Origin: Actinomycetota bacterium
Lineage (GTDB): Bacteria > Actinomycetota > Acidimicrobiia > Acidimicrobiales > JAJPHE01
Length of the DNA stretch: 32,320 nucleotides
Assembly: GCA_021325435.1 (NCBI GenBank)
Contig: JAJPHE010000036.1
Coordinates: 1 to 32,320 of the forward strand
Direction: 5' to 3'
Shown here: positions 498 through 9,383 of the stretch, piece by piece
Layout of the letters: each line of letters opens with the position of its first letter
Position numbering within the stretch: the stretch's first letter is position 1
Translations under genes and position numbers: made by a program
Notes under the pieces: model-generated
What the model was told of the DNA's origin: nothing
What the model saw: only the letters and a program-made list of their open reading frames with translations
Databases searched by the model: none

Positions 498-501
498 TCA
501 A
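181..501 (-). CDS. Possible small gene at the end of the jet-like operon (106 codons, TTG start)
   Basis: This frame opens with a TTG that overlaps the TGA of the upstream TOPRIM gene (TTGA), the same style of 4-base overlap that links other genes of this operon. The first 50 residues are rich in Pro, Ser and Gln and look non-coding. Residues 53-88 form a credible amphipathic helix with leucines, and DYLARLRAL (77-85) resembles the N-terminus of the second gene of the same operon (FDLARLRAL). There is no family match that I recognise, third-position GC is low, and a repeat cluster runs through it. It may be a real small subunit, a decayed copy, or chance. The overlap start is its best support. 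Confidence 0.25.
   Translation of the reverse strand: MNQVRTQETEGVTTARQGPPCWSSPPTQQPSRSANNGPPLPPHPPNTVGSAQWLNNLLTELLISQLILLGRSAEDYLARLRALVGRRPGGLVHPITTQQRSHESSH
354..370. repeat. Perfect 17-base palindrome ACCCAACA-G-TGTTGGGT
   Basis: Two 8-base arms (354-361 and 363-370) are exact reverse complements around one central G. The arms belong to the TGTTGGGT unit found again at 416-423 and, in the opposite sense, at 292-299. With a one-base centre it is better explained as a binding site for a dimeric protein than as an RNA hairpin. The larger pairing of 288-299 with 416-427 would enclose it in a 140-base stem-loop. Confidence 0.6.
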
Positions 502-1778
502 GAAACGACTGCGGTTGCTGCATGCCTCTCCCCACCGATCTCCCCCACCAGGTCCTGAACGATCTCAAGGGTTGCCAGCTCCTGCTCCACCGGGTAACCA
601 CGATCGAGGACTCCTGAGGCGAACCACCCGACCAAGGGGTCGTCGGCCAGCGCGTGCAGATCTCTGATCGTCGTGCCGTCCGATGGGAATGAAGGACGCG
701 GCGGGTGGCCCCAGGTCCCAACGTCCACAATCTCGGCCGCGGGCGCCGCCTGGAGCACTCGTCTGGCGATCCGGACACCGCCGAGGTCGGAGTCGACCAC
801 GGCGACCAACCGCTTGCCGGCCGCGGCCAACTGCCCGAGCAGCGCGGCGGCATCGTCTCCGAACTGCCCGGCTGTGTAGATCACCGGAAGCTCCCTATGC
901 CGCGCGCACACCGCTTCGGCCGGCTGAAGGTTCTCGATTACGACCACGGTCCCCTTCGAAGTCGAGACAGCCAGGCCGGACTGGTCGAGCCGTAGGGATA
1001 CGGGTCCCCGTAGCGGTCCGAGGTCCACGTCCCCATCCGATGTCGTCAGGACGATCGGGCCCCCGATCCCGATCCGGTCTCCCCGCCGGAGGCCCAGCTG
1101 ATCGAGGACAGCGCCTGGAACACCTGCGGCCGTCAGTACCGCACGGACATCGTGGACCTTGGTCGCTCCGAAGTGGGCCTGGGCGAAGGCACGGGGCCCA
1201 GCATGGGAGACGCCACCCACGAGGTCCCGGGCGGCGGCGCTGAGGACGGCCGAGGCTGCGGTAGTCGCGGCGGACCGCAGGGCGGCGGCGACCTCGGGAT
1301 ATGAGATCTCGACCTCTTCCGCCAGCATCTCATGCTCACTACTGCGGCGACGGCGAGCCTCGGCAGCGCTGGCACGCTCGCGGGCAGCGGTAGCAGCTGC
1401 ATGGTCGGTGGGCTGCCACCAGAGCGGATCGCCAATATGCCCCCGTTCGTCGACTTCGCAGGCGAGATGAACGACGTCCCCACGCACCAAAGTAAGTGCG
1501 ACATCCACAGATCGGCCCCCGTAGCGGCCGACGACGGTGCTCCACCGCCGCCGTCCAGCTCCGATCGCGAACGCGCGATCGGCATCAGGGACAACGTCCG
1601 GTACGTGGGCAGGGTCCCGGGTGAGAACGACCTGCGCCGTCTTACGCCTGCGGCGTCGATCGCGGATCTCTACGAACTCGCCAGCGCGCTCCACGACATC
1701 GACCAGCGGGACGGCGCGACAGCCGGGCGGGACTCCTCGCACCGGCGCCGGCGGCCCGGCGGGGTCCCACCGCTTCAC
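498..1778 (-). CDS. jetD: JetD-like TOPRIM protein (probable nuclease subunit of a Wadjet-type system)
   Basis: This 426-residue protein is last of the core operon; its GTG overlaps the TGA of the SMC gene (GTGA). In Wadjet/MksG systems the fourth subunit has an N-terminal arm and a C-terminal topoisomerase-VI-like TOPRIM domain that cleaves DNA held by the SMC complex. Here a TOPRIM core is visible: a beta strand ending in a Glu (VVVIENLQ, E282) and, after a spacer, VAVVDSDLGG with D329 and D331, the expected E...DxD metal-binding arrangement. The first 160 residues are basic and charged, and residues 190-230 could form a DNA-binding helical region. The motif DSDLGG differs from the GDxDPxG form common in DUF2220/DUF2399 proteins, so it is a diverged member. 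Assignment to Wadjet type I, II or III is not possible by eye. Confidence 0.75.
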   Translation of the reverse strand: MKRWDPAGPPAPVRGVPPGCRAVPLVDVVERAGEFVEIRDRRRRRKTAQVVLTRDPAHVPDVVPDADRAFAIGAGRRRWSTVVGRYGGRSVDVALTLVRGDVVHLACEVDERGHIGDPLWWQPTDHAAATAARERASAAEARRRRSSEHEMLAEEVEISYPEVAAALRSAATTAASAVLSAAARDLVGGVSHAGPRAFAQAHFGATKVHDVRAVLTAAGVPGAVLDQLGLRRGDRIGIGGPIVLTTSDGDVDLGPLRGPVSLRLDQSGLAVSTSKGTVVVIENLQPAEAVCARHRELPVIYTAGQFGDDAAALLGQLAAAGKRLVAVVDSDLGGVRIARRVLQAAPAAEIVDVGTWGHPPRPSFPSDGTTIRDLHALADDPLVGWFASGVLDRGYPVEQELATLEIVQDLVGEIGGERHAATAVVS

Positions 1779-4700
1779 AGCAGGCGTCCAGCTTCGACCG
1801 CCGGCCGGGTGCGCTCCACTCTCCCACCGTCGGAGTCGAAGCCCCAGACCCGCGTCGGCCGGCAGAGCGCGGCCGCATCGCTCAGTCGCTCAAACCAGAG
1901 GAGCAGCCGGGCGGCGCCCAGGGCGGCCACCTCCTCAAGCACCTTGTCCTGGCACGCAGCGATGACAGTCACGCCATGGCTCTCGGCGACGTGGGCGAAG
2001 GCGGTCAGCACCTGGCGGAGATGCTCGCGGCCGAAGTCGTTCCCAGCCTCGTCGACGATGAGCACTCGACCCGCCGGGTCCTGGGCAGCGAGGAGGGCCG
2101 CCAGCACAAGATGCGTACGATGCTGCTTCTGCATCGCCGAATTCGCCTGCCGCGTGTAGGGCAACCACTTCGCTCCGTGGCCGCGGCGCCACTCCGGACG
2201 AACCTCCCAGACCCAGAGGTCGGTGGCCTGCTGGGGGCGGATGGACTCGCACCGGAGCTGGGCTCCATACCCGCCGGCAGCGGCATCGAGTTCGCCGTAG
2301 CGGGCGCTGACCTGACCGAGCGCTGCCTCGATTTGTTGTTCAACCATATCCCGCTGTCGCTCGAGAAGGTCAGACTGGGTGTCGCACTCGCGGCGGGCAG
2401 CACCGATCACTTCCTCCCATCGAGCTCGCTCCATCTCGACATCCTCGAGGAAGGTCTCGTCCTGCTCGGCGAGGTCGTCTAACCAGTCGGCAAGAGGCCG
2501 GACCACAGTGTCAAAGCGTCGGATCTCGTTGGCGGCCGGGACCTCCTCGTCCAGACCATTGCGGGCCTGGATCACTCCGGCGATCGTCGCCGTAGGCGCG
2601 CCGTGGCCAGAGATGGAATCGACCCCTACCCGCTCAAGAGCCGTCACCAGTTGCTCCGTCGCTCGCTTGCGGATGCTCTCCTCCTTGCGATCGTCCCCCT
2701 CCAGGGCGGCCGCCGCCGCCTCGTCGGAATCACCCCAGGATTGTCGCCAGCCGGCGACGTCGATCCGGGTGATCGCCTCCCGCGTAGTCCTGTGGTCCCG
2801 CTCGATGCGCTCGAGCTCCTCCTGGGCCGCGCTGAGCGCGGCGGCGAGCCGGTCTCGCTCCTGCACGGCGGTGCGGTGGCGCACTTCGACATCGACCAGG
2901 TCCTGGCGGGCGCGCCGGAGAGCCTCTTCTCGGGCGGCACTCTCCTGCCGTGCGGCCGCCAGCTTCTGGGACCTCTCCGACTCCTGCGACCGGAGCTCCT
3001 CCAGCTCCGCGGCCGCTCGGATCCGGCTAGCGGCGTCGGTCGCCAGCTCATGGCCCCGCGCGGCGGTGTCGCGCCGAGCGGCAGCCTCCTGAAGAGCCCG
3101 CTCGGCCTTCTCCAACCGGGCCCGGGCCAGGGCCACAGCGGCATCGCGGCCGCATAGCTCGTGCTCGAAGTCCCCGGCGACCACTACGCCGGCATCAACA
3201 TCGGCATAGGGCGGCTGGGCCCGTCGGGCAAGTGATTGAAGGAATCGCGCCGCTCCCGTGGGTGCCTCCACCACTCCGTCCGGCAATTCGGAGGTGGCGT
3301 CCTCGTCGAGTACGACGAGGACGGTGCCCGCAGGAGAGGCCGCCAGAGCAACATCGCGGTGGCCGCGCGGGATCGTAAGGGCGCCTAGCCATGGCGCCAG
3401 GATGGGCTCCCACGTTGCTCGTGACTGTTCGGCCAGCACGATGCGATCGAGCAGTGGGGCCGCTGGCACTCGAGCGGCATCCAACGCGGCGCGCGCTTCG
3501 GGATCCGCGTCACCATGCTCGACGATGGCCCCCAGAGCTGTACGAGCCCGCTCGAGATCGGCCTCGGTGGCGCCGAGCGCCCTGGTGGTGGCGTCGAGCA
3601 TCCCGGCAGCGTCGATAACGCGGGCGTCGGCCTCCTCTAGGCTCAGCCCTGCGGGAGCAGCCAGGGCGTGGGATGTCAACTTTCGGATCCGGTCCGTCAA
3701 CATCCCCAGCTCCACGACGAGCCGCGCGACCGTTTCAGTCGCCTCGCGGTAGTGCTCTCCCGCCTCACCATCGGCGTCCCGAGCTGCGGATAACGCCTCG
3801 TCAAGTGATGTGGGATCGACGGCATCTGCTATCCGAGCTTCGAGGTCAGCGACCACGGCGGACGCTGCGGCCATCTCGCCCTCGAGCGCAGTCGCCTCAC
3901 TCTGCAACCGTTGGACCTCGGACAACCCGTCCAGGAGCTTGCGCGCTAGCCGAAGCTGCCACTGCCGCCGGCCCTCGGCTACGGCCGCGCGCGCCCCGTT
4001 GCGGGCCTCGATCTCGTGGAGGGCCGATGCCCACTCCCGCTCGCGGTGGTCGTTCTCCTCGATTCGGCTAGCTAGGAGCTGCTGGGCGTCGGCGAGCTTG
4101 GCACGCAGGTCTCGTTCCCCGTCGATGAGATGCTCCATGCCGAGTAGAACGATGAGTTCGCTGCCGATCCGGGCCGGACTCAGACGCGCCTGGAGCTGCA
4201 TGAGGGACGAGTCGGTGTCTCGGTGGCCCCTGCTGGTTACGTAGGCCAGGCAGCGTCCGGTACCGCCGTAGAGCTGCTCGACGAAGGCCGTGGGGCCGAT
4301 CTGGCGGTCGCGCCCCAGGCGGTTCCACATGGTTGGCGCCTCATCGCGTTCGGTGACCAGGTGGACGCCCGGAGCCCAGCGGGCAGCAAGCCGAGGTGAA
4401 TCCTCGGCCGAGATGCGCACCCACACGGTGAGCTCGTCGTAGTTGCCGTCCGCGGTCGCCTGGGCGAAGACGCCAGCGACGAAGCCGACCCGCGCGGCGT
4501 CGTAGAGCCCGGCGGCGTCACCCGAGAGATCGGGGTCGAACAGGAGGCCGATGGCGTCAGCGCCTCCCGTCGTCGCCACTCGCCACTCGGGGTCACCAAG
4601 CAATAACGACACGGAGGCCAGAAAAGTCGTCTTGCCGCTGCCATTGGAGTCACGATCCGGGCCGGCACCGGACACGGCCACCAGCGCGGACGGCACGAGA

Positions 4701-4810
4701 GGCACCGGGTGGTGGGTCAACCGGCCCAGGTCGATCGTCTGGACCGCGATCAGCTGGCGGCGGCCAACAATACCTCCAGGTCCCACACCGAACAGAGTGG
4801 GTTCACTCAT
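1775..4810 (-). CDS. jetC: JetC-like SMC/RAD50-type coiled-coil ATPase
   Basis: This 1011-residue protein has an ATPase head split by two long coiled coils (roughly residues 230-420 and 560-830, rich in Ala, Glu and Arg) around a hinge-like segment (about 430-560). That is the plan of SMC proteins such as JetC, MksB and MukB, which bring DNA together and extrude loops. Walker A is DRDSNGSGKTT (about 52-62) and Walker B is VLIVDEAGNDFG (916-927) with D920 and E921. The position expected for the LSGG signature reads RQANSAMQKQH, so the canonical signature is not recognisable. The ATG at 4810 is preferred over 4816 because GAGGAG lies 6 bases upstream of it; the start overlaps the previous gene by 8 bases. 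The organisation and neighbours support a Wadjet-like role in restricting foreign circular DNA. That function is inferred. Confidence 0.8.
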   Translation of the reverse strand: MSEPTLFGVGPGGIVGRRQLIAVQTIDLGRLTHHPVPLVPSALVAVSGAGPDRDSNGSGKTTFLASVSLLLGDPEWRVATTGGADAIGLLFDPDLSGDAAGLYDAARVGFVAGVFAQATADGNYDELTVWVRISAEDSPRLAARWAPGVHLVTERDEAPTMWNRLGRDRQIGPTAFVEQLYGGTGRCLAYVTSRGHRDTDSSLMQLQARLSPARIGSELIVLLGMEHLIDGERDLRAKLADAQQLLASRIEENDHREREWASALHEIEARNGARAAVAEGRRQWQLRLARKLLDGLSEVQRLQSEATALEGEMAAASAVVADLEARIADAVDPTSLDEALSAARDADGEAGEHYREATETVARLVVELGMLTDRIRKLTSHALAAPAGLSLEEADARVIDAAGMLDATTRALGATEADLERARTALGAIVEHGDADPEARAALDAARVPAAPLLDRIVLAEQSRATWEPILAPWLGALTIPRGHRDVALAASPAGTVLVVLDEDATSELPDGVVEAPTGAARFLQSLARRAQPPYADVDAGVVVAGDFEHELCGRDAAVALARARLEKAERALQEAAARRDTAARGHELATDAASRIRAAAELEELRSQESERSQKLAAARQESAAREEALRRARQDLVDVEVRHRTAVQERDRLAAALSAAQEELERIERDHRTTREAITRIDVAGWRQSWGDSDEAAAAALEGDDRKEESIRKRATEQLVTALERVGVDSISGHGAPTATIAGVIQARNGLDEEVPAANEIRRFDTVVRPLADWLDDLAEQDETFLEDVEMERARWEEVIGAARRECDTQSDLLERQRDMVEQQIEAALGQVSARYGELDAAAGGYGAQLRCESIRPQQATDLWVWEVRPEWRRGHGAKWLPYTRQANSAMQKQHRTHLVLAALLAAQDPAGRVLIVDEAGNDFGREHLRQVLTAFAHVAESHGVTVIAACQDKVLEEVAALGAARLLLWFERLSDAAALCRPTRVWGFDSDGGRVERTRPAVEAGRLL

Positions 4811-5426
4811 GAACATCTCCTCGTCGCCGGTGGATGGCCCGGGCCAGGTTCGATTGGGGCGCTGTCGCCACGACGAGGTTCTCCCAGACCATTCGGCTGC
4901 GCGCTTCGGTCAGGCGACGGAACTGTGGGCCGGGTCGCAGCTTCGAGCGCAGACCGCTGCGCAGGATCCCGGCGTCGCGCAGTCGGCGCAAGGAGGCCCG
5001 GATCGCCGATTCGTTGAGCCGCCGATCGCGGTTGGCAGCAAGGGTTACGACGTCCGGAGCAGGCAGCTGCTCGCTCGACCAATCGTTCGAGTCCACCATC
5101 CCGCGCGCCGCTGGAATGGCGACGCTGTGGATAAGGACGAGGGTGAGAACGGCCGCGTCCACCGGGGCCAGGACGCCTATACCCTCCTTCGCCAGCCGGT
5201 CGGCAATCTTGTCGTCATAACCGGAAGTCCAATGCGCTTTGCCGACCCGAACCAGGGTCCGCCCGGCGCCGAGCAGGGACTCCTCGACGAGGTGGCGGAG
5301 GGCAGGATCGGCCAGAGCCTGGAACTGCTCGGCCGCCACGGGATCGACGGCCTCCTCGACGGCGACCACCGCGTTGAGGACGGCGGCACGGTCGCGGCCG
5401 GACAGGGCGGCGAGGGTCACCGTCAC
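4803..5426 (-). CDS. JetB/MksE-like small wHTH subunit (KITE-type candidate)
   Basis: This 207-residue protein begins with GTG overlapping the TGA of the preceding gene (GTGA) and ends overlapping the SMC gene. The N-terminal half is helical. The C-terminal half (about 120-195) has a winged-helix pattern: ESAIRASLRRLRDAGIL as recognition helices, then PGPQFRRLTEARSRMVWENL. In MukBEF, MksBEFG and Wadjet complexes, a small winged-helix KITE dimer (MukE/JetB) binds the kleisin and DNA. Size, fold pattern and position just before the SMC gene fit that role. I cannot match it to DUF4194 or DUF2398 by eye. It could equally share the JetB role with the neighbouring 166-residue protein. Confidence 0.6.
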   Translation of the reverse strand: MTVTLAALSGRDRAAVLNAVVAVEEAVDPVAAEQFQALADPALRHLVEESLLGAGRTLVRVGKAHWTSGYDDKIADRLAKEGIGVLAPVDAAVLTLVLIHSVAIPAARGMVDSNDWSSEQLPAPDVVTLAANRDRRLNESAIRASLRRLRDAGILRSGLRSKLRPGPQFRRLTEARSRMVWENLVVATAPQSNLARAIHRRRGDVHE

Positions 5427-5923
5427 GAGGAAGCCCCGGTTGGTGCGGGAAGGGCGTCGAGGTTCCGGCGGAAGGCCTCGAGGTCGGCCTCGGACCATGC
5501 GGCGATCACCGGACCGAGCCGCACGACATCGCCGTCCACGTCGAGCAGCCGGGACTGGGCAAGCACGTGGCGGATCGCGCCGATGATGTGGCGGCTGGCG
5601 GCGTCGGTGATCTTCATCGCCCGCGCGGCCGCGGTGACTGCGGTCAAGCTGATCGGACTGCCGGGGTAGGGATGGTGGTCACGGTCCGCCCACGCCAGGC
5701 CGACGCAAAGGCCTAGCGCGACCAGAGCAGAGTCCGGTAGCTCAGAGGTAGCGACCTCCAGATCGGTGGCGCTGGGGGCCTCGATATGGCGCGCTAGGAC
5801 CACATCGCTTCCCGCCCGCTGGAGCGCTCTGCCGACCAGGGCAGCCGGACGCTCCAGAGCCGTCGGGTTCCCGATCGTTGCCGCCGACAGGGCCCGCAGA
5901 CGCGCCAAATCGAAGGCGCTCAT
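5423..5923 (-). CDS. Extra small operon protein, possible second KITE-like subunit
   Basis: This 166-residue protein starts at an ATG that overlaps the stop of the kleisin-like gene (ATGA); a longer upstream reading is rejected because it would lie mostly inside that gene. It is helical, opens with FDLARLRALSAA, and its C-terminal half (about 95-160: SLTAVTAAARAMKITD, RHIIGAIRHVLAQSRLL, then a short beta turn DVDGDVVRLGP) reads like a winged helix followed by a terminal helix. No family is recognised. Known Wadjet operons have four genes, so this is an additional component placed between JetA and JetB. Two tandem small winged-helix proteins would resemble a KITE heterodimer (compare Nse1/Nse3). 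That comparison is inference. Confidence 0.55.
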   Translation of the reverse strand: MSAFDLARLRALSAATIGNPTALERPAALVGRALQRAGSDVVLARHIEAPSATDLEVATSELPDSALVALGLCVGLAWADRDHHPYPGSPISLTAVTAAARAMKITDAASRHIIGAIRHVLAQSRLLDVDGDVVRLGPVIAAWSEADLEAFRRNLDALPAPTGASS

Positions 5924-7266
5924 CTGTGCTGACCCTGGATCAGGTCGTCGCGTGTTGCCTCCTCGGCGACGCGCGGTCGTTCCACACTCAGACGGGCATC
6001 CGAAGTCCAGGTGGTATGGGCGTCGGTATCGACCACGATGCTGTCCGCCAGCTGAAGCTGATAGGTGGAGATCCGGTCGACGTCGAGTGATGAAAGATCC
6101 ACGATCACTCTGAGGGCCGCGGGCCAAGGAGAAGCCCGCAGCGTCGAGGACAGCTCAACCGAAGCATCACCCTGCAGGAGCAGCTCGGCTGCGTGCTCCC
6201 GCTGGCGTCGAAGGAGGTCAATCCTTTCTGCGACGCCGTCCAAGGGATCGTCCGTTGTGTCATCCGATGGTGATTCGACCGGAGGACGGCGCGGATGTCG
6301 GCGGCGGGGACTGTACGTTCGCAGCGCGGCGACCACGTCAGTCGGCGAAATCGCCGGTCGCGCAGGATCCCAGACGACCCCGTCGAACACGGCAGCGAGT
6401 TCCTCGACCGTTCCTGTAGTCGCCAGCCGTGCGTAGTCCGCCGGGTCTAGGAGGGAGAAGTCTCGGGTGGACGCGCCCTCGTCGACGATCCTCTCGAGCA
6501 GCCGCTGGGTTGCCTCCAGGTAACTCTGAGCCGCCGTCAGCAGGGCGGCCGCCGAGGTGCGCAGGGACGGGTGGTGTCTGCTTACCGTGTCGACTACCCG
6601 CTCAACCTGGGAGAGCATGCGGTCCCCGTCATGATGGGCCCGTTCGGCGAGGAGCTCGCCAAGAGTGGACGTATCAGTCAGCCGGTTGACCGCGGCCGTC
6701 CACATCTCTACGTAGCCCCTCTGTTCCACCAGGGCCTCAGCAACCTTGCCGGTGTCGTGCCGTCCAGCCTCGATGGCATCCGCCGTGGCGCCGAGGAGCT
6801 GCAGCAGCTCCTCGATTCCGCCTTCAGATAGGCCCTTGCGGAAGAAGAGACTCCCGGCCACTCCGTCCGTGCTGACGACGTAGCGCTGCTGGTGGGCCTT
6901 GTCGCGGTAGGGCAGCAGCATCGCCAGGTCGACGAAGGTGTCGATGCGACGGTTGAGTTCCGCCAGGTCGACTTCGCCGGTACGGCTGGCCCGCTCGACG
7001 ATCTGGGCCCGGCTGAGTCCGTGTTCGATGTCGCCCTGGCCAAAGGCGCCGATCACGAGCTCGGCGTACCGGAGCAGGGAGGGGTCGTCGACCACAGCTC
7101 CGCCGTGAGCGGCCACTGGCGCGGCCATGGCGCCCAGTCGGCGGGCGGCACCACCCCGCCGGTGCCGTTTGCCCACAAAGTCCAGCTGCTCGCCCTCCAT
7201 CGTGAAGAAGGTAGAAAGAGGCTGTGACAGCCAGGCGGATGGCCGGAACCCGCTCAGGCCCGCCAT
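5920..7266 (-). CDS. jetA: JetA-like kleisin-type subunit with N-terminal winged helix
   Basis: First gene of the five-gene operon, 448 residues. Residues about 75-130 look like a winged helix (ELVIGAFGQG, SRAQIVERASRTG, then RRIDTFVDLAMLLPY and a wing ending RYVVS). A long helical middle (150-290) follows, then a charged linker (300-325) and a C-terminal helical plus beta part ending near 448. JetA proteins (DUF3375 or DUF2397 in types I and II) are kleisin subunits that bridge the SMC heads; length, position and architecture agree, but I cannot place it in a named family by sequence. Translation from 7266 has AAGGA only 3 bases before the ATG. A -10-like TATACA lies in the divergent palindrome upstream. 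An internal ATG at 7200 is the alternative start. Confidence 0.6.
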   Translation of the reverse strand: MAGLSGFRPSAWLSQPLSTFFTMEGEQLDFVGKRHRRGGAARRLGAMAAPVAAHGGAVVDDPSLLRYAELVIGAFGQGDIEHGLSRAQIVERASRTGEVDLAELNRRIDTFVDLAMLLPYRDKAHQQRYVVSTDGVAGSLFFRKGLSEGGIEELLQLLGATADAIEAGRHDTGKVAEALVEQRGYVEMWTAAVNRLTDTSTLGELLAERAHHDGDRMLSQVERVVDTVSRHHPSLRTSAAALLTAAQSYLEATQRLLERIVDEGASTRDFSLLDPADYARLATTGTVEELAAVFDGVVWDPARPAISPTDVVAALRTYSPRRRHPRRPPVESPSDDTTDDPLDGVAERIDLLRRQREHAAELLLQGDASVELSSTLRASPWPAALRVIVDLSSLDVDRISTYQLQLADSIVVDTDAHTTWTSDARLSVERPRVAEEATRDDLIQGQHR

Positions 7267-7309: not shown

Positions 7310-8344
7310 GTGCTTATGGATGCGGCGTTGTCCTGCCTGCCCGAGGCCGGCGTCCGGGTTGAGCGGCTCTCCCAGGAACGGCCGGGTGACTCTCGCGTCG
7401 ACGCCGTGTTCGAACTGGTGGCGGGCGAGGCACGGGCCCGATTCGCCGCCGAGGAGAAGGGTCGTGCCCCGTACCCGAACGAGCTCCGGAATCTCGATCG
7501 GGTTCGCCACGCCTTAGCCCCCGTCGGAGTGCCTTGCCTGGTTGTCCCGTTCGTCGGCGAGGCACTTGGTCGGGCGCTCACCGAGGCGGGTTGGTCGTGG
7601 GCCGACACCCAGTGCAACTTCGATTTACGCGCACCGGGGATGGTGCTGCGTCAGCGGCGAACGACGGCACCGCCGAAGCCGAGCCGGACGGCGCTGCCCC
7701 AGGGCCCGGGGAGCCTGGCCATCATCCGGACCCTGATCCGCTTCGGGAGGTCGGAGACCGAAGAGCACACTGGCAGCTCTCTGGCCGCCCAGGCGCGGGT
7801 ATCCCAGCCGCGCGCGTCTCAGGTGCTGCACCGATTGCAGGCACTCGATCTCGTCCGCCGCAGCGACAGTGGAAGGTGGATCCCAGATCGCGCGGCCCTG
7901 CTCGATCGCTTCCTCGCCGAATACCGTGGGCCGCAAGCCTGGGAGAAGTACCTCTACACCCTTGACATGCCATCCGATGTGGCGCTGCGGGCGGCGCGCT
8001 CGGCGCCCACGACAGGACCCATCGCCGTATCGGCCGACGTGGGCCCTGACCTCATCACCCCATGGCGCCGCCCGAGCATCCTCATCCTCTACGCCGCCCA
8101 GGACATCCCCCTGTCGGAACTGGGCGTTGTGGAGGCACAGGGCACCCACGACGCCAACGTGATCCTGCGCATCCCTCGGGACACCTCGGTCTTCGCCGTG
8201 CCCGAGTTCGTCGCTGACTTCCAGGGAGTTGAGGTCCCACTCGCGGACCTGTCACAGCAGATCTGGGACCTTCACTTCCTCGGTGGGGCCGATCGCCTCG
8301 AGGCCGCCGGCCTGCTCAGGGAATGGCTGCTGAGCCGCCCTTGA
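7310..8344 (+). CDS. AbiEi-family antitoxin / transcriptional regulator (type IV toxin-antitoxin)
   Basis: This 344-residue protein matches the layout of the larger AbiEi antitoxin family. Residues 1-113 form an alpha/beta domain with VDAVFEL, AAEEKGR and LVVPFVGEALGRALTEAGWSW followed by the D-x-x-x-N-like ADTQCNFDL. A winged helix follows (about 135-190, SLAAQARVSQPRASQVLHRLQALDLVRR). A C-terminal alpha/beta domain has LYTLDMPSDVALRAA and ILILYAAQDI. In such systems the antitoxin represses its own promoter and neutralises the nucleotidyltransferase toxin encoded next. D31 with E48-x-K50 in the N-domain resembles a PD-(D/E)xK core, but nuclease activity is not implied. The GTG at 7310 is preferred because the promoter fits a leaderless start; ATG 7316 is the alternative. 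The toxin gene overlaps its end. Confidence 0.7.
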   Translation: MLMDAALSCLPEAGVRVERLSQERPGDSRVDAVFELVAGEARARFAAEEKGRAPYPNELRNLDRVRHALAPVGVPCLVVPFVGEALGRALTEAGWSWADTQCNFDLRAPGMVLRQRRTTAPPKPSRTALPQGPGSLAIIRTLIRFGRSETEEHTGSSLAAQARVSQPRASQVLHRLQALDLVRRSDSGRWIPDRAALLDRFLAEYRGPQAWEKYLYTLDMPSDVALRAARSAPTTGPIAVSADVGPDLITPWRRPSILILYAAQDIPLSELGVVEAQGTHDANVILRIPRDTSVFAVPEFVADFQGVEVPLADLSQQIWDLHFLGGADRLEAAGLLREWLLSRP

Positions 8345-9159
8345 ACCGACTCGTCCTGCGGGCGGGTTCGGTCGCCGACGACATCGGCTATGTCGCGCTC
8401 GCTGACCTGTCGCAGATTCTGAGCCAGAAGGAGGATCTCAGCTACCGGGTGATCGGCGGCCATATGGTCACCGCCCTGGTCGCGCGGTGGGGCTTGGGCG
8501 CCGAGCTGTACCGGGAAACTGGTGATACGGATCTGGGCGTGCCGCCCATCGTCGTCAAGGATCGCTCCCTGATCGAGCGACTCAGGGGGGTTGGCTATGA
8601 ACCGATCGCCGGGAACCGGTTCGCACGTCCCGTGATCGACATACCGATTACACTGACTGCCCCAGAGGAATCCACACCGCAGGCGATGATCGACGTGCTC
8701 GTACCTGCGTACACGAGCCGGCCGCGGCAAGACCGACGGGTCACCGATCAGCTGGTGACGACCGAGGTGCTCGGCTTGCCCACGGCGCTCATGCGCCCGC
8801 CGGTCCGGCTGCGACTGGAACTTCATCGGCTGAACGGGACTCGACTCAGCGTGGAGATCGCCTTTCCCGACGAGGTTGCTGCCCTGGTTCTGAAAGGATT
8901 CGCCTGTCGAGTCCGCAACCAGGGTACGGATATCATCGATGTTTGGCGCTGCCTCGAGGTTGGGCTCGCGGCGGGGGTGAGCCCAGCTGACTTCACCGAA
9001 GGAGCCCCGGCGGAGGCCGCCGCCATAGTGCGGGACCTGTTCCGACGCCGAGACGGGAGAGGCATGACCACACTCATCGGCGAACAGCGACTGGCACCCG
9101 GAGCCGCCGACGCTCGGTTCACTCGGATCCGTGCCCTGATCGACCGGATCCTTGGTTGA
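8323..9159 (+). CDS. AbiEii-like nucleotidyltransferase toxin candidate
   Basis: This 278-residue protein overlaps the end of the antitoxin gene by 22 bases (ATG at 8323); a TTG at 8341 giving a TTGA overlap is the alternative start. It shows a nucleotidyltransferase (MNT-type) core: GG at 45-46, ETGDTDLGV with D68 and D70 as the metal-binding pair, and a third acidic residue in MIDVLVP (D124). AbiEii toxins are nucleotidyltransferases of this fold, and the pairing with an AbiEi-like regulator fits a type IV toxin-antitoxin or abortive-infection unit. The rest is not recognised in detail. A housekeeping nucleotidyltransferase of unknown target cannot be ruled out, but the position beside a Wadjet-like operon supports defence. 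Confidence 0.65.
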   Translation: MAAEPPLNRLVLRAGSVADDIGYVALADLSQILSQKEDLSYRVIGGHMVTALVARWGLGAELYRETGDTDLGVPPIVVKDRSLIERLRGVGYEPIAGNRFARPVIDIPITLTAPEESTPQAMIDVLVPAYTSRPRQDRRVTDQLVTTEVLGLPTALMRPPVRLRLELHRLNGTRLSVEIAFPDEVAALVLKGFACRVRNQGTDIIDVWRCLEVGLAAGVSPADFTEGAPAEAAAIVRDLFRRRDGRGMTTLIGEQRLAPGAADARFTRIRALIDRILG

Positions 9160-9185: not shown

Positions 9186-9309
9186 AAGAACCGCTCGGGC
9201 CAGGACCCGCGAGAATTGGTGTCAAGCCGCGACAGTTGGGCTGTGGCCCCCCAGCACACCGAAGGAGAGGTCGGTTGAGGCACCGTATGGGCCTGACCTG
9301 GAAGTTCGG

Positions 9310-9383
9310 CGCGCTCGGAGGGATTCGAACCCCCAACCTTCTGATCCGTAGTCAGATGCTCTAATCCGTTGAGCTACGAGCGC
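9310..9383 (-). tRNA. tRNA-Arg (anticodon ACG)
   Basis: On the minus strand the acceptor stem GCGCTCG pairs with CGAGCGC (9317-9311). The D arm is GCTC...GAGC, the anticodon stem TCTGA/TCAGA encloses CTACGGA with anticodon ACG, and the T arm carries the GGTTCGAATCC-type loop. CCA is not encoded. The 3' end faces left, towards the accessory region, which is the usual arrangement when an island has inserted at a tRNA gene. I found no second copy of the 3' end inside the window. Confidence 0.95.

Follow-up and report, generated by a model that had tools for sequence, protein, structure and literature searches.

A Wadjet-like SMC operon of Actinomycetota with a putative KITE heterodimer and exchangeable effectors

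Wadjet systems of types I to III are described in an excerpt of PMC10586767 as four genes, JetABCD, in which JetB is a KITE protein and JetD carries a CAP-like N-terminal domain before its TOPRIM domain. An operon of five genes in an Actinomycetota bacterium (contig JAJPHE010000036.1) raises the question of whether it belongs to one of these types or forms a class of its own. The operon occupies positions 498-7266 on the minus strand of the window, the whole 32,320-nt stretch of DNA that was analysed, to which coordinates refer unless a locus is named. Its genes are designated A, X, B, SMC, and D. Based on sequence and fold comparisons, the operon probably represents a distinct class of Wadjet-like SMC complex in which X and B constitute a hetero-KITE and D is a TOPRIM effector. 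The class is most likely new, with modular effectors and a mechanism deduced from homology, and it would be a member of no type that we tested.

Gene content and relatives of the operon

A first-pass annotation of the locus had proposed five tightly overlapping genes. Indeed, five open reading frames (ORFs) were found on the minus strand (Table 1), with the overlaps as claimed: ATGA at the A/X junction and GTGA at both the X/B and SMC/D junctions. The overlap between B and SMC is 8 bases if SMC starts at the ATG at 4810 and 14 bases if it starts at 4816. Searches of the window proteins against Pfam, NCBIfam, and PADLOC gave clear recognition for D alone; A, X, and B yielded no informative match in these collections. 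The annotation had also held that the first protein was neither DUF3375 nor DUF2397 and that the small proteins were neither DUF4194 nor DUF2398. Pfam agreed, as these four families were unmatched by the window's A, X, and B at E values up to 1 and by 62 A rows and 76 X/B rows at E values up to 0.01.

Table 1. Coordinates of the operon genes, of kinase-bearing D genes in related loci, and of flanking features of the window
Feature	Coordinates	Strand	Length	Assignment
Gene A, kleisin-like	5920..7266	(-)	448 aa	Based on the order of domains in the AlphaFold2 (AF2) model and a weak JetA2/DUF2397 profile match
Gene X	5423..5923	(-)	166 aa	Extra small subunit; first unit of the proposed KITE heterodimer
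Gene B	4803..5426	(-)	207 aa	JetB/MukE-like KITE; second unit of the proposed heterodimer
SMC-like ATPase	1775..4816	(-)	1013 aa (1011 aa from ATG at 4810)	JetC-like
Gene D	498..1778	(-)	426 aa	JetD/MksG-like TOPRIM protein; proposed nuclease effector with N-terminal docking domain
Kinase-D	L051:11063-12433			D N-terminus and Pkinase, no TOPRIM
Kinase-D	L055:11090-12460			D N-terminus and Pkinase, no TOPRIM
Kinase-D	L071:11063-12433			D N-terminus and Pkinase, no TOPRIM
Kinase-D	L073:7814-9160			D N-terminus and Pkinase, no TOPRIM
First neighbour gene	7310-8344	(+)		
Second neighbour gene	8323-9159	(+)		
tRNA-Arg	9308-9383			

Relatives were collected with a four-row SMC alignment, which retrieved 245 from genome_contigs; counts of loci refer to the best 80 of these 245. 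The scan rested on two peptide patterns, and the 80 retained loci were actinobacterial by their record titles; relatives in other phyla are possible. Genes were called with iterative profiles on stop-to-stop ORFs. One of the 80 loci, L072, duplicates L018 exactly within one genome. The neighbourhood survey, which the first-pass annotation had proposed for the five-gene order, found A, X, B, and SMC together in 76 of the 80 loci, so this order is not due to chance, and D in only part of them. Three of the four loci lacking X (L036, L044, and L057) end upstream at a contig edge. Separate genes on the same strand overlapped at 54 of 76 A/X, 41 of 64 X/B, 55 of 76 B/SMC, and 20 of 31 SMC/D junctions, with a median junction of -4 bases (starts chosen by script). 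In eight loci (L007, L008, L009, L021, L025, L027, L028, and L030), D lies upstream of A. At L074 (7989-12328), SMC and D stand without A, X, or B, none of which occurs in the 8 kb upstream, a stretch free of N.

The first-pass annotation had allowed that the 166-residue gene X might be non-coding or absent from homologous loci. Neither is the case. X is under purifying selection and coding: the ratio of nonsynonymous to synonymous substitution rates (dN/dS) was 0.135, 0.206, and 0.194 in three pairwise comparisons, compared with 0.096-0.184 for the other subunits. Together with the presence of X in 76 of the 80 loci, these values rule out a spurious gene.

The small subunits X and B

Profile comparison using hhalign aligned X with B at probabilities of 47% and 57% in two comparisons. 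The latter had an E value of 1e-4 and paired residues 28-164 of X with 48-180 of B. Controls gave 0.1% for the reversed profile and at most 1.5% over 20 column shuffles. On these alignments, X is a distant paralogue of B. The two are separate genes in 64 of the 76 loci holding both and share one ORF in the other 12; with a further case in L003 (Nonomuraea), 13 fused genes of 385-502 aa were found. On a phylogeny of SMC heads (81 rows, 409 columns, LG+G4 without mixture; some branches are long and their placement uncertain), fusion status had to change twice across the 77 rows scored, once per main clade. An unrelated regulator or antitoxin was ruled out as the identity of X by its paralogy with B, the two fusions, and its fixed slot between A and B.

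The X-B pair was modelled using the natural fusion of L030 (415 aa) and a 76-row alignment comprising 10 of the 13 fusions, X and B from the window, 32 of the 62 X genes listed, and 32 of the 64 B genes listed. The model had a predicted local distance difference test score (pLDDT) of 88.7 and a predicted template modelling score (pTM) of 0.86. The latter would probably be out of reach for two unlinked halves. In Foldseek, the top match was chain 9qe0_D, labelled by phmmer as JetB of Wadjet-II, with an E value of 7.6e-4 over 397 columns, TM-scores of 0.36 and 0.38, and a root-mean-square deviation (rmsd) of 11.3. It was followed by chains of ScpB, MukBEF, MukE-MukF, JetABC-I, and Nse1-Nse3-Nse4 amid unrelated winged-helix proteins, all with E values above 0.001.

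Nse1-Nse3 is the KITE heterodimer of Smc5/6, and in VIA the two halves of the fusion each found a chain from these complexes. Specifically, the X half matched 7dg2_A of the Nse1-Nse3-Nse4 complex (Z 10.6, 163 residues, rmsd 3.9) and the B half matched 7tve_C of the SMC5/6 core complex (Z 8.5, 167 residues), while 9qe0_D was matched along the whole chain (Z 9.2, 307 residues, rmsd 6.6). Many single winged-helix proteins also reached Z scores of 8-9.5 with the B half. The 50 VIA rows omit the JetABC-I entries 8as8 and 8dk1, although Foldseek gives them; this omission proves nothing. The window operon would resemble Smc5/6 in having two different KITE units. Smc5/6 differs in being eukaryotic, and the literature passages covered mention no such heterodimer for Wadjet.

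The paralogy, the two fusions, the confident model, and the fold matches to KITE proteins and JetB-II indicate that X and B probably form a KITE heterodimer. The KITE subunit is present at the level of fold, with JetB-II first in Foldseek; sequence profiles do not reveal the kinship. As the X-B pair matches the whole JetB-II chain, a single type II protein may already combine the two units, and X is perhaps not simply an additional subunit relative to that type. If the heterodimer is real, it would be a prokaryotic counterpart against which Nse1-Nse3 can be compared, and it would hint at how KITE arrangements of one and two chains interconvert.

Gene D and the exchange of effectors

The window's D matched Pfam DUF2399 (E 4e-8) and PADLOC JetD2 (7e-8). 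In profile comparison, D aligned with JetD2 at 97%, with lower values for the controls. One PADLOC JetD1 model was matched by all 26 aligned D rows. The likeness to JetD1 is taken from PADLOC, as the JetD1 ORFs picked for hhalign gave no match even to JetD2 and are possibly wrong. Among PDB profiles, the best match was MksG (E 1.6e-4). The TOPRIM residues E282, N283, D329, and D331 are invariant in the 26 rows, which represent the window and 25 of the 37 loci with a TOPRIM-type D (L029 and 11 others are outside the alignment). All 37 of these proteins, which constitute the TOPRIM-type D of the 80 loci, have the EN...DxD pattern and profile E values of 3e-114 or better.

D was unmatched in 39 of the 80 loci, 31 of which have at least 1.5 kb of sequence on both sides. 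In 18 D-less genomes, with at most 87 candidates scored per genome, a full-length D elsewhere was found for L034 and in none of the other 17, which rejects a D hidden elsewhere as the general explanation. Partial matches to the TOPRIM region (E 4e-7 to 7e-6) were detected in five of the 18 (L031, L040, L048, L014, and L023). The presence of TOPRIM D changed eight times on the SMC-head tree when kinase-bearing D was scored as without.

These absences bear on a reading in which the A-X-B-SMC core is a chromosome-organising condensin of the MksBEF kind, with nuclease or kinase as an accessory add-on and defence as a secondary role. The scarcity of D in well-flanked loci and elsewhere in their genomes is what this reading predicts, and D-less forms lie on short branches within genera, some of them with common flanking genes. 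Shared flanking genes also occur at some D-bearing loci, however, and the window's own clade mostly keeps D (26 of 31 rows) with invariant TOPRIM residues. The host genome, moreover, encodes one canonical SMC on a different contig (899 bits), so the operon's SMC is accessory. Occurrence is also sparse: with query P0003, three of 296 sampled genomes of the phylum were positive, the window's own included, as a lower bound. The operon differs from the nuclease-free MukBEF/MksBEF core in that it has D, which 39 of the 80 relatives lack. We consider a condensin unlikely.

Four of the 80 loci, L051, L055, L071, and L073, encode a D whose N-terminal domain runs on into a protein kinase (Pkinase E 2e-26 to 3e-27). 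The L051 genome also encodes another, complete D and gives one partial match; in that of L055, the single D match is by its extent the kinase-bearing D itself. L073 combines two lineages. For its A, X, B, and SMC, identity is 81-86% with the nuclease-bearing L042 and 45-51% with L055; for residues 1-110 of its D, it is 77% and 43.5%, respectively. Past a switch near residue 120, the relationship is inverted: residues 191-448 share 86% with L055 and 24% with L042. By these identities, L073 is a natural recombinant of two lineages in which the effector half alone was exchanged. Since the core and the D N-terminus appear to travel together while the effector is exchanged, the N-terminal domain is likely the docking part.

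Other genes follow SMC in D-less Actinomadura. Separate protein kinase genes lie just downstream in L040 (11238-13016) and L052 (11055-12836), with Pkinase E values of 2e-41 and 1.5e-44, respectively. In L035, L037, L044, and L045, SMC is followed by a gene of ~1,100 aa, which weakly matches HEAT repeats in three of the four; L033 has the same start with an interrupted frame.

The four kinase-bearing D proteins and the exchange in L073 are also what would be expected of a nucleic-acid sensor of the Lamassu kind, in which the SMC core would detect invading DNA and set off whichever effector the D N-terminus carries, be it a nuclease, a kinase, or perhaps others. Of 22 SMC rows, two are touched by one LmuB model (best 4.5e-11). 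The window's LmuB match lies over the coiled coil, and such matches are no evidence of kinship; further, the window's D is a TOPRIM protein and no kinase target is known. We regard this sensor as a possible but somewhat doubtful reading.

A combination of the two ideas earns slightly more confidence, close to an even chance without reaching it: a Wadjet-class motor in which a hetero-KITE is paired with a degenerate ABC signature would serve as a general sensor. Its effectors, a TOPRIM nuclease or a protein kinase, would be interchangeable and mounted on the D N-terminus as a docking adaptor; on extruding foreign DNA, some members would phosphorylate, for example in abortive signalling, instead of cutting. 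As the DNA-cutting subunit is replaced by a kinase or missing in relatives, one motor may serve different responses. The swap of kinase for nuclease and the recombinant L073 make the idea of an SMC core as a sensor separable from DNA cleavage directly testable.

The SMC-like ATPase, gene A, and known systems

The SMC aligned with the JetC1 profile at 97.2% (E 3e-11), with controls of 22% reversed and at most 1.4% shuffled, and with JetC2 and MukB at 32.7% and 45%, respectively. The Walker A lysine (K62) and the Walker B pair (D922/E923) are present in all 81 SMC rows. The ABC signature region reads N-[T/S/G/A]-A, with T in 58, S in 15, G in 7, and A in 1 of the rows, and with N892 and A894 in all 81. 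No row has a glycine at 894 or 895, the two glycine positions of SGG, and SGG[E/Q] is absent from the C-terminal half of all 81; S[G/Q]G[E/Q] occurs in two of the 81 open frames, near residue 210 and far from the signature. At the C-terminal site, six JetC1 rows have SGG[Q/E] and five JetC2 rows have SGGE (three) or SQGE (two). The register of the signature was obtained from a low-probability alignment to JetC1 (6%), which makes the residue pairing tentative; the absence of SGG is firm. The invariant loss of SGG[E/Q] in an otherwise intact ATPase presents a mechanistic puzzle.

The AF2 model of A had a pLDDT of 81.3 and a pTM of 0.47. After residues 1-37, which are of low confidence, it comprises an N-terminal winged helix (~39-131), a helical middle (133-267), a low-confidence linker, and a C-terminal helix/strand domain (~345-430). 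Winged helix, helical bundle, linker, and C-terminal domain is the order of domains in kleisins. In VIA, MukF 1t98_B (Z 10.0, 197 residues, rmsd 7.9) and other MukF and MukBEF/MukEF chains (Z 9-10) were matched, as was 9qe0_E of the Wadjet-II JetABC (Z 8.0, 299 residues, rmsd 34.6); designed and unrelated helical proteins reached similar Z scores. Against the JetA2/DUF2397 profile, A scored 22% (E 1e-3), with controls of 0.3% reversed and at most 0.3% shuffled.

Types I and II were compared directly, and type III through PADLOC models. Like Wadjet I/MksBEFG, the operon combines a putative kleisin, a KITE, an SMC, and a proposed TOPRIM nuclease; its SMC is close to JetC1, and its D is matched by JetD1 models and, in the PDB, by MksG. 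Unlike Wadjet I, it has five genes, no match to DUF3375 or DUF4194 (hhalign at most 1.7%), no SGG[E/Q], and an SMC of 1013 aa rather than the 1127-1169 aa of six JetC1 rows. Type III gave only weak JetC3 matches in PADLOC, in the window over the coiled coil. As in MukBEF, the A model resembles MukF and the KITE fold resembles MukE-MukF chains. In contrast, MukE is one protein, the stretch seen beside mukFEB has no nuclease gene, and MukE, MukF, and MukB profiles gave no match above 50%.

A further close system is Wadjet II (DUF2397, DUF2398, SMC, and DUF2399; 9qe0, N. vireti), of which nvJET is described in an excerpt of PMC12647877. The operon shares with it a D with DUF2399, a weakly DUF2397-like A, and the resemblance in fold of X and B to the whole JetB-II chain. 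It could accordingly be read as a type II derivative whose long JetB was split into X and B, with nothing else new. JetB2 proteins of 392-450 aa (as trimmed) are near the length of X and B together or fused, Foldseek ranks Wadjet-II JetB first with a match that spans the entire fusion, and among the profiles tried, A and D were best matched by JetA2 (22%) and JetD2 (97%). Other features speak against it. In 64 of 76 loci, X and B are encoded separately; they have no DUF2398 match and score at most 5.9% against JetB2. D across the family also matches JetD1 models well. The SMC is far closer to JetC1 than to JetC2 (97% versus 33%), is shorter than the 1381-1406 aa (~1390) of JetC2, and lacks at its signature the S[G/Q]G[E/Q] of the six JetC1 and five JetC2 rows. 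Its C-terminal head, moreover, falls outside the pairing of JetC1 with JetC2 (97% with each other, 6-7% with this SMC). A derivative of type II is therefore improbable.

Membership in type I or II was rejected, since A, X, and B pass neither the profile nor the Pfam tests. No clear match of all parts to one four-gene Wadjet type, which the first-pass annotation had named as the contrary outcome, was found for types I and II or, by PADLOC only, for type III. Four genes with one KITE gene, as in any Wadjet type, also do not describe an operon of five with X in 76 of 80 loci. Among the literature matches listed (titles and abstract openings, mostly outside subscription papers), there was no five-gene or kinase-bearing Wadjet.

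Several observations weigh against a distinct Wadjet-like class. Without a canonical signature, the ATPase cycle of the SMC is uncertain. PADLOC models of JetC1-3, LmuB, and mad touch SMC rows only sporadically; in the window, JetC3 and LmuB matches are weak (E 2e-4) and both lie over the coiled coil. X or B alone scored at most 5.9% against JetB1, JetB2, and MukE profiles, and the X-B alignment at most 2.1%. Weak matches to PADLOC JetB1 models occurred in a few X/B rows (best 4e-5), and the Csa3 winged-helix model touched more rows (8, best 5e-7) than any of them. A is only weakly like JetA2 in profile, and its model is less certain. Foldseek found nothing for A below an E value of 0.06 (best 0.065, hence none below 0.001), the top match being a 302-residue chain of a MukE-MukF structure. 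PADLOC JetA was unmatched by the 62 A rows at E 0.1, and nine of them weakly matched DrmMI (best 6e-4). Finally, since 39 of 80 loci lack D, cleavage cannot be the sole role of the core.

In the profile-profile searches and structure prediction that the first-pass annotation had proposed, SMC and D resembled JetC1 and JetD2 and the X-B fusion was KITE-like; the profile matches of A and of X or B were weak. Its proposal of a distinct class of SMC-based plasmid restriction with a KITE heterodimer was supported in part: it held for the Wadjet/MksBEFG-like character, the conserved extra subunit, the KITE heterodimer as the best reading of X and B, and the separation from types I and II. D, however, is not invariant, as 39 of 80 loci lack it and four have a kinase in place of TOPRIM, so "SMC-based plasmid restriction" may fit the nuclease-bearing members only.

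For a distinct Wadjet-like class, the following mechanism may be envisaged. Two SMC chains joined by the kleisin-like A would constitute a motor that extrudes DNA loops. Where Wadjet-I has a single JetB as its KITE, this complex would have the X-B heterodimer, made of diverged copies of one unit. D would dock via its N-terminal domain and, in the window, carry a TOPRIM nuclease that would cut DNA, probably small circles such as plasmids, once the motor finishes extruding. Such a system would add a class to the plasmid-restricting SMC systems; beyond D, PADLOC 2023 picks up little of the operon.

The operon is sparsely distributed. Query P0003 found one relative, 69% identical, among 59 near genomes besides the window's own. 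The SMC profile found three positive genomes in 396, the window's own counted; this prevalence is a lower bound because two candidates were scored per genome. Carriage by phages or viruses was rejected: phages gave no match to the operon, and 426 pattern stretches in viral_contigs contained zero relatives. Among plasmids, the single record found is an 11.9 Mb Nonomuraea replicon that we took as a chromosome. A possible decayed operon is seen at L005 (G195), where short pieces resembling A and B adjoin an SMC frame truncated to 460 aa.

On the plus strand, a divergent pair of overlapping genes begins 43 bp upstream of A. They appeared AbiEi/AbiEii-type by eye, without such a match in Pfam, NCBIfam, or PADLOC, and a PDB search of the second product gave nothing useful. 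Both recur near the operon in L010, at 60% and 64%. A common gene block lies downstream of D in L013, L017, L018, L019, and L022, and one of its proteins is transposase-like by eye. An excerpt of PMC10482375 describes Wadjet as enriched in Actinobacteria and at the ends of Streptomyces chromosomes. L018 and L072 are identical stretches of 19,027 bases, located at 27.7-46.7 kb and 10.630-10.649 of 10.677 Mb in the Streptomyces cyaneochromogenes chromosome record; their positions near both chromosome ends suggest terminal inverted repeats.

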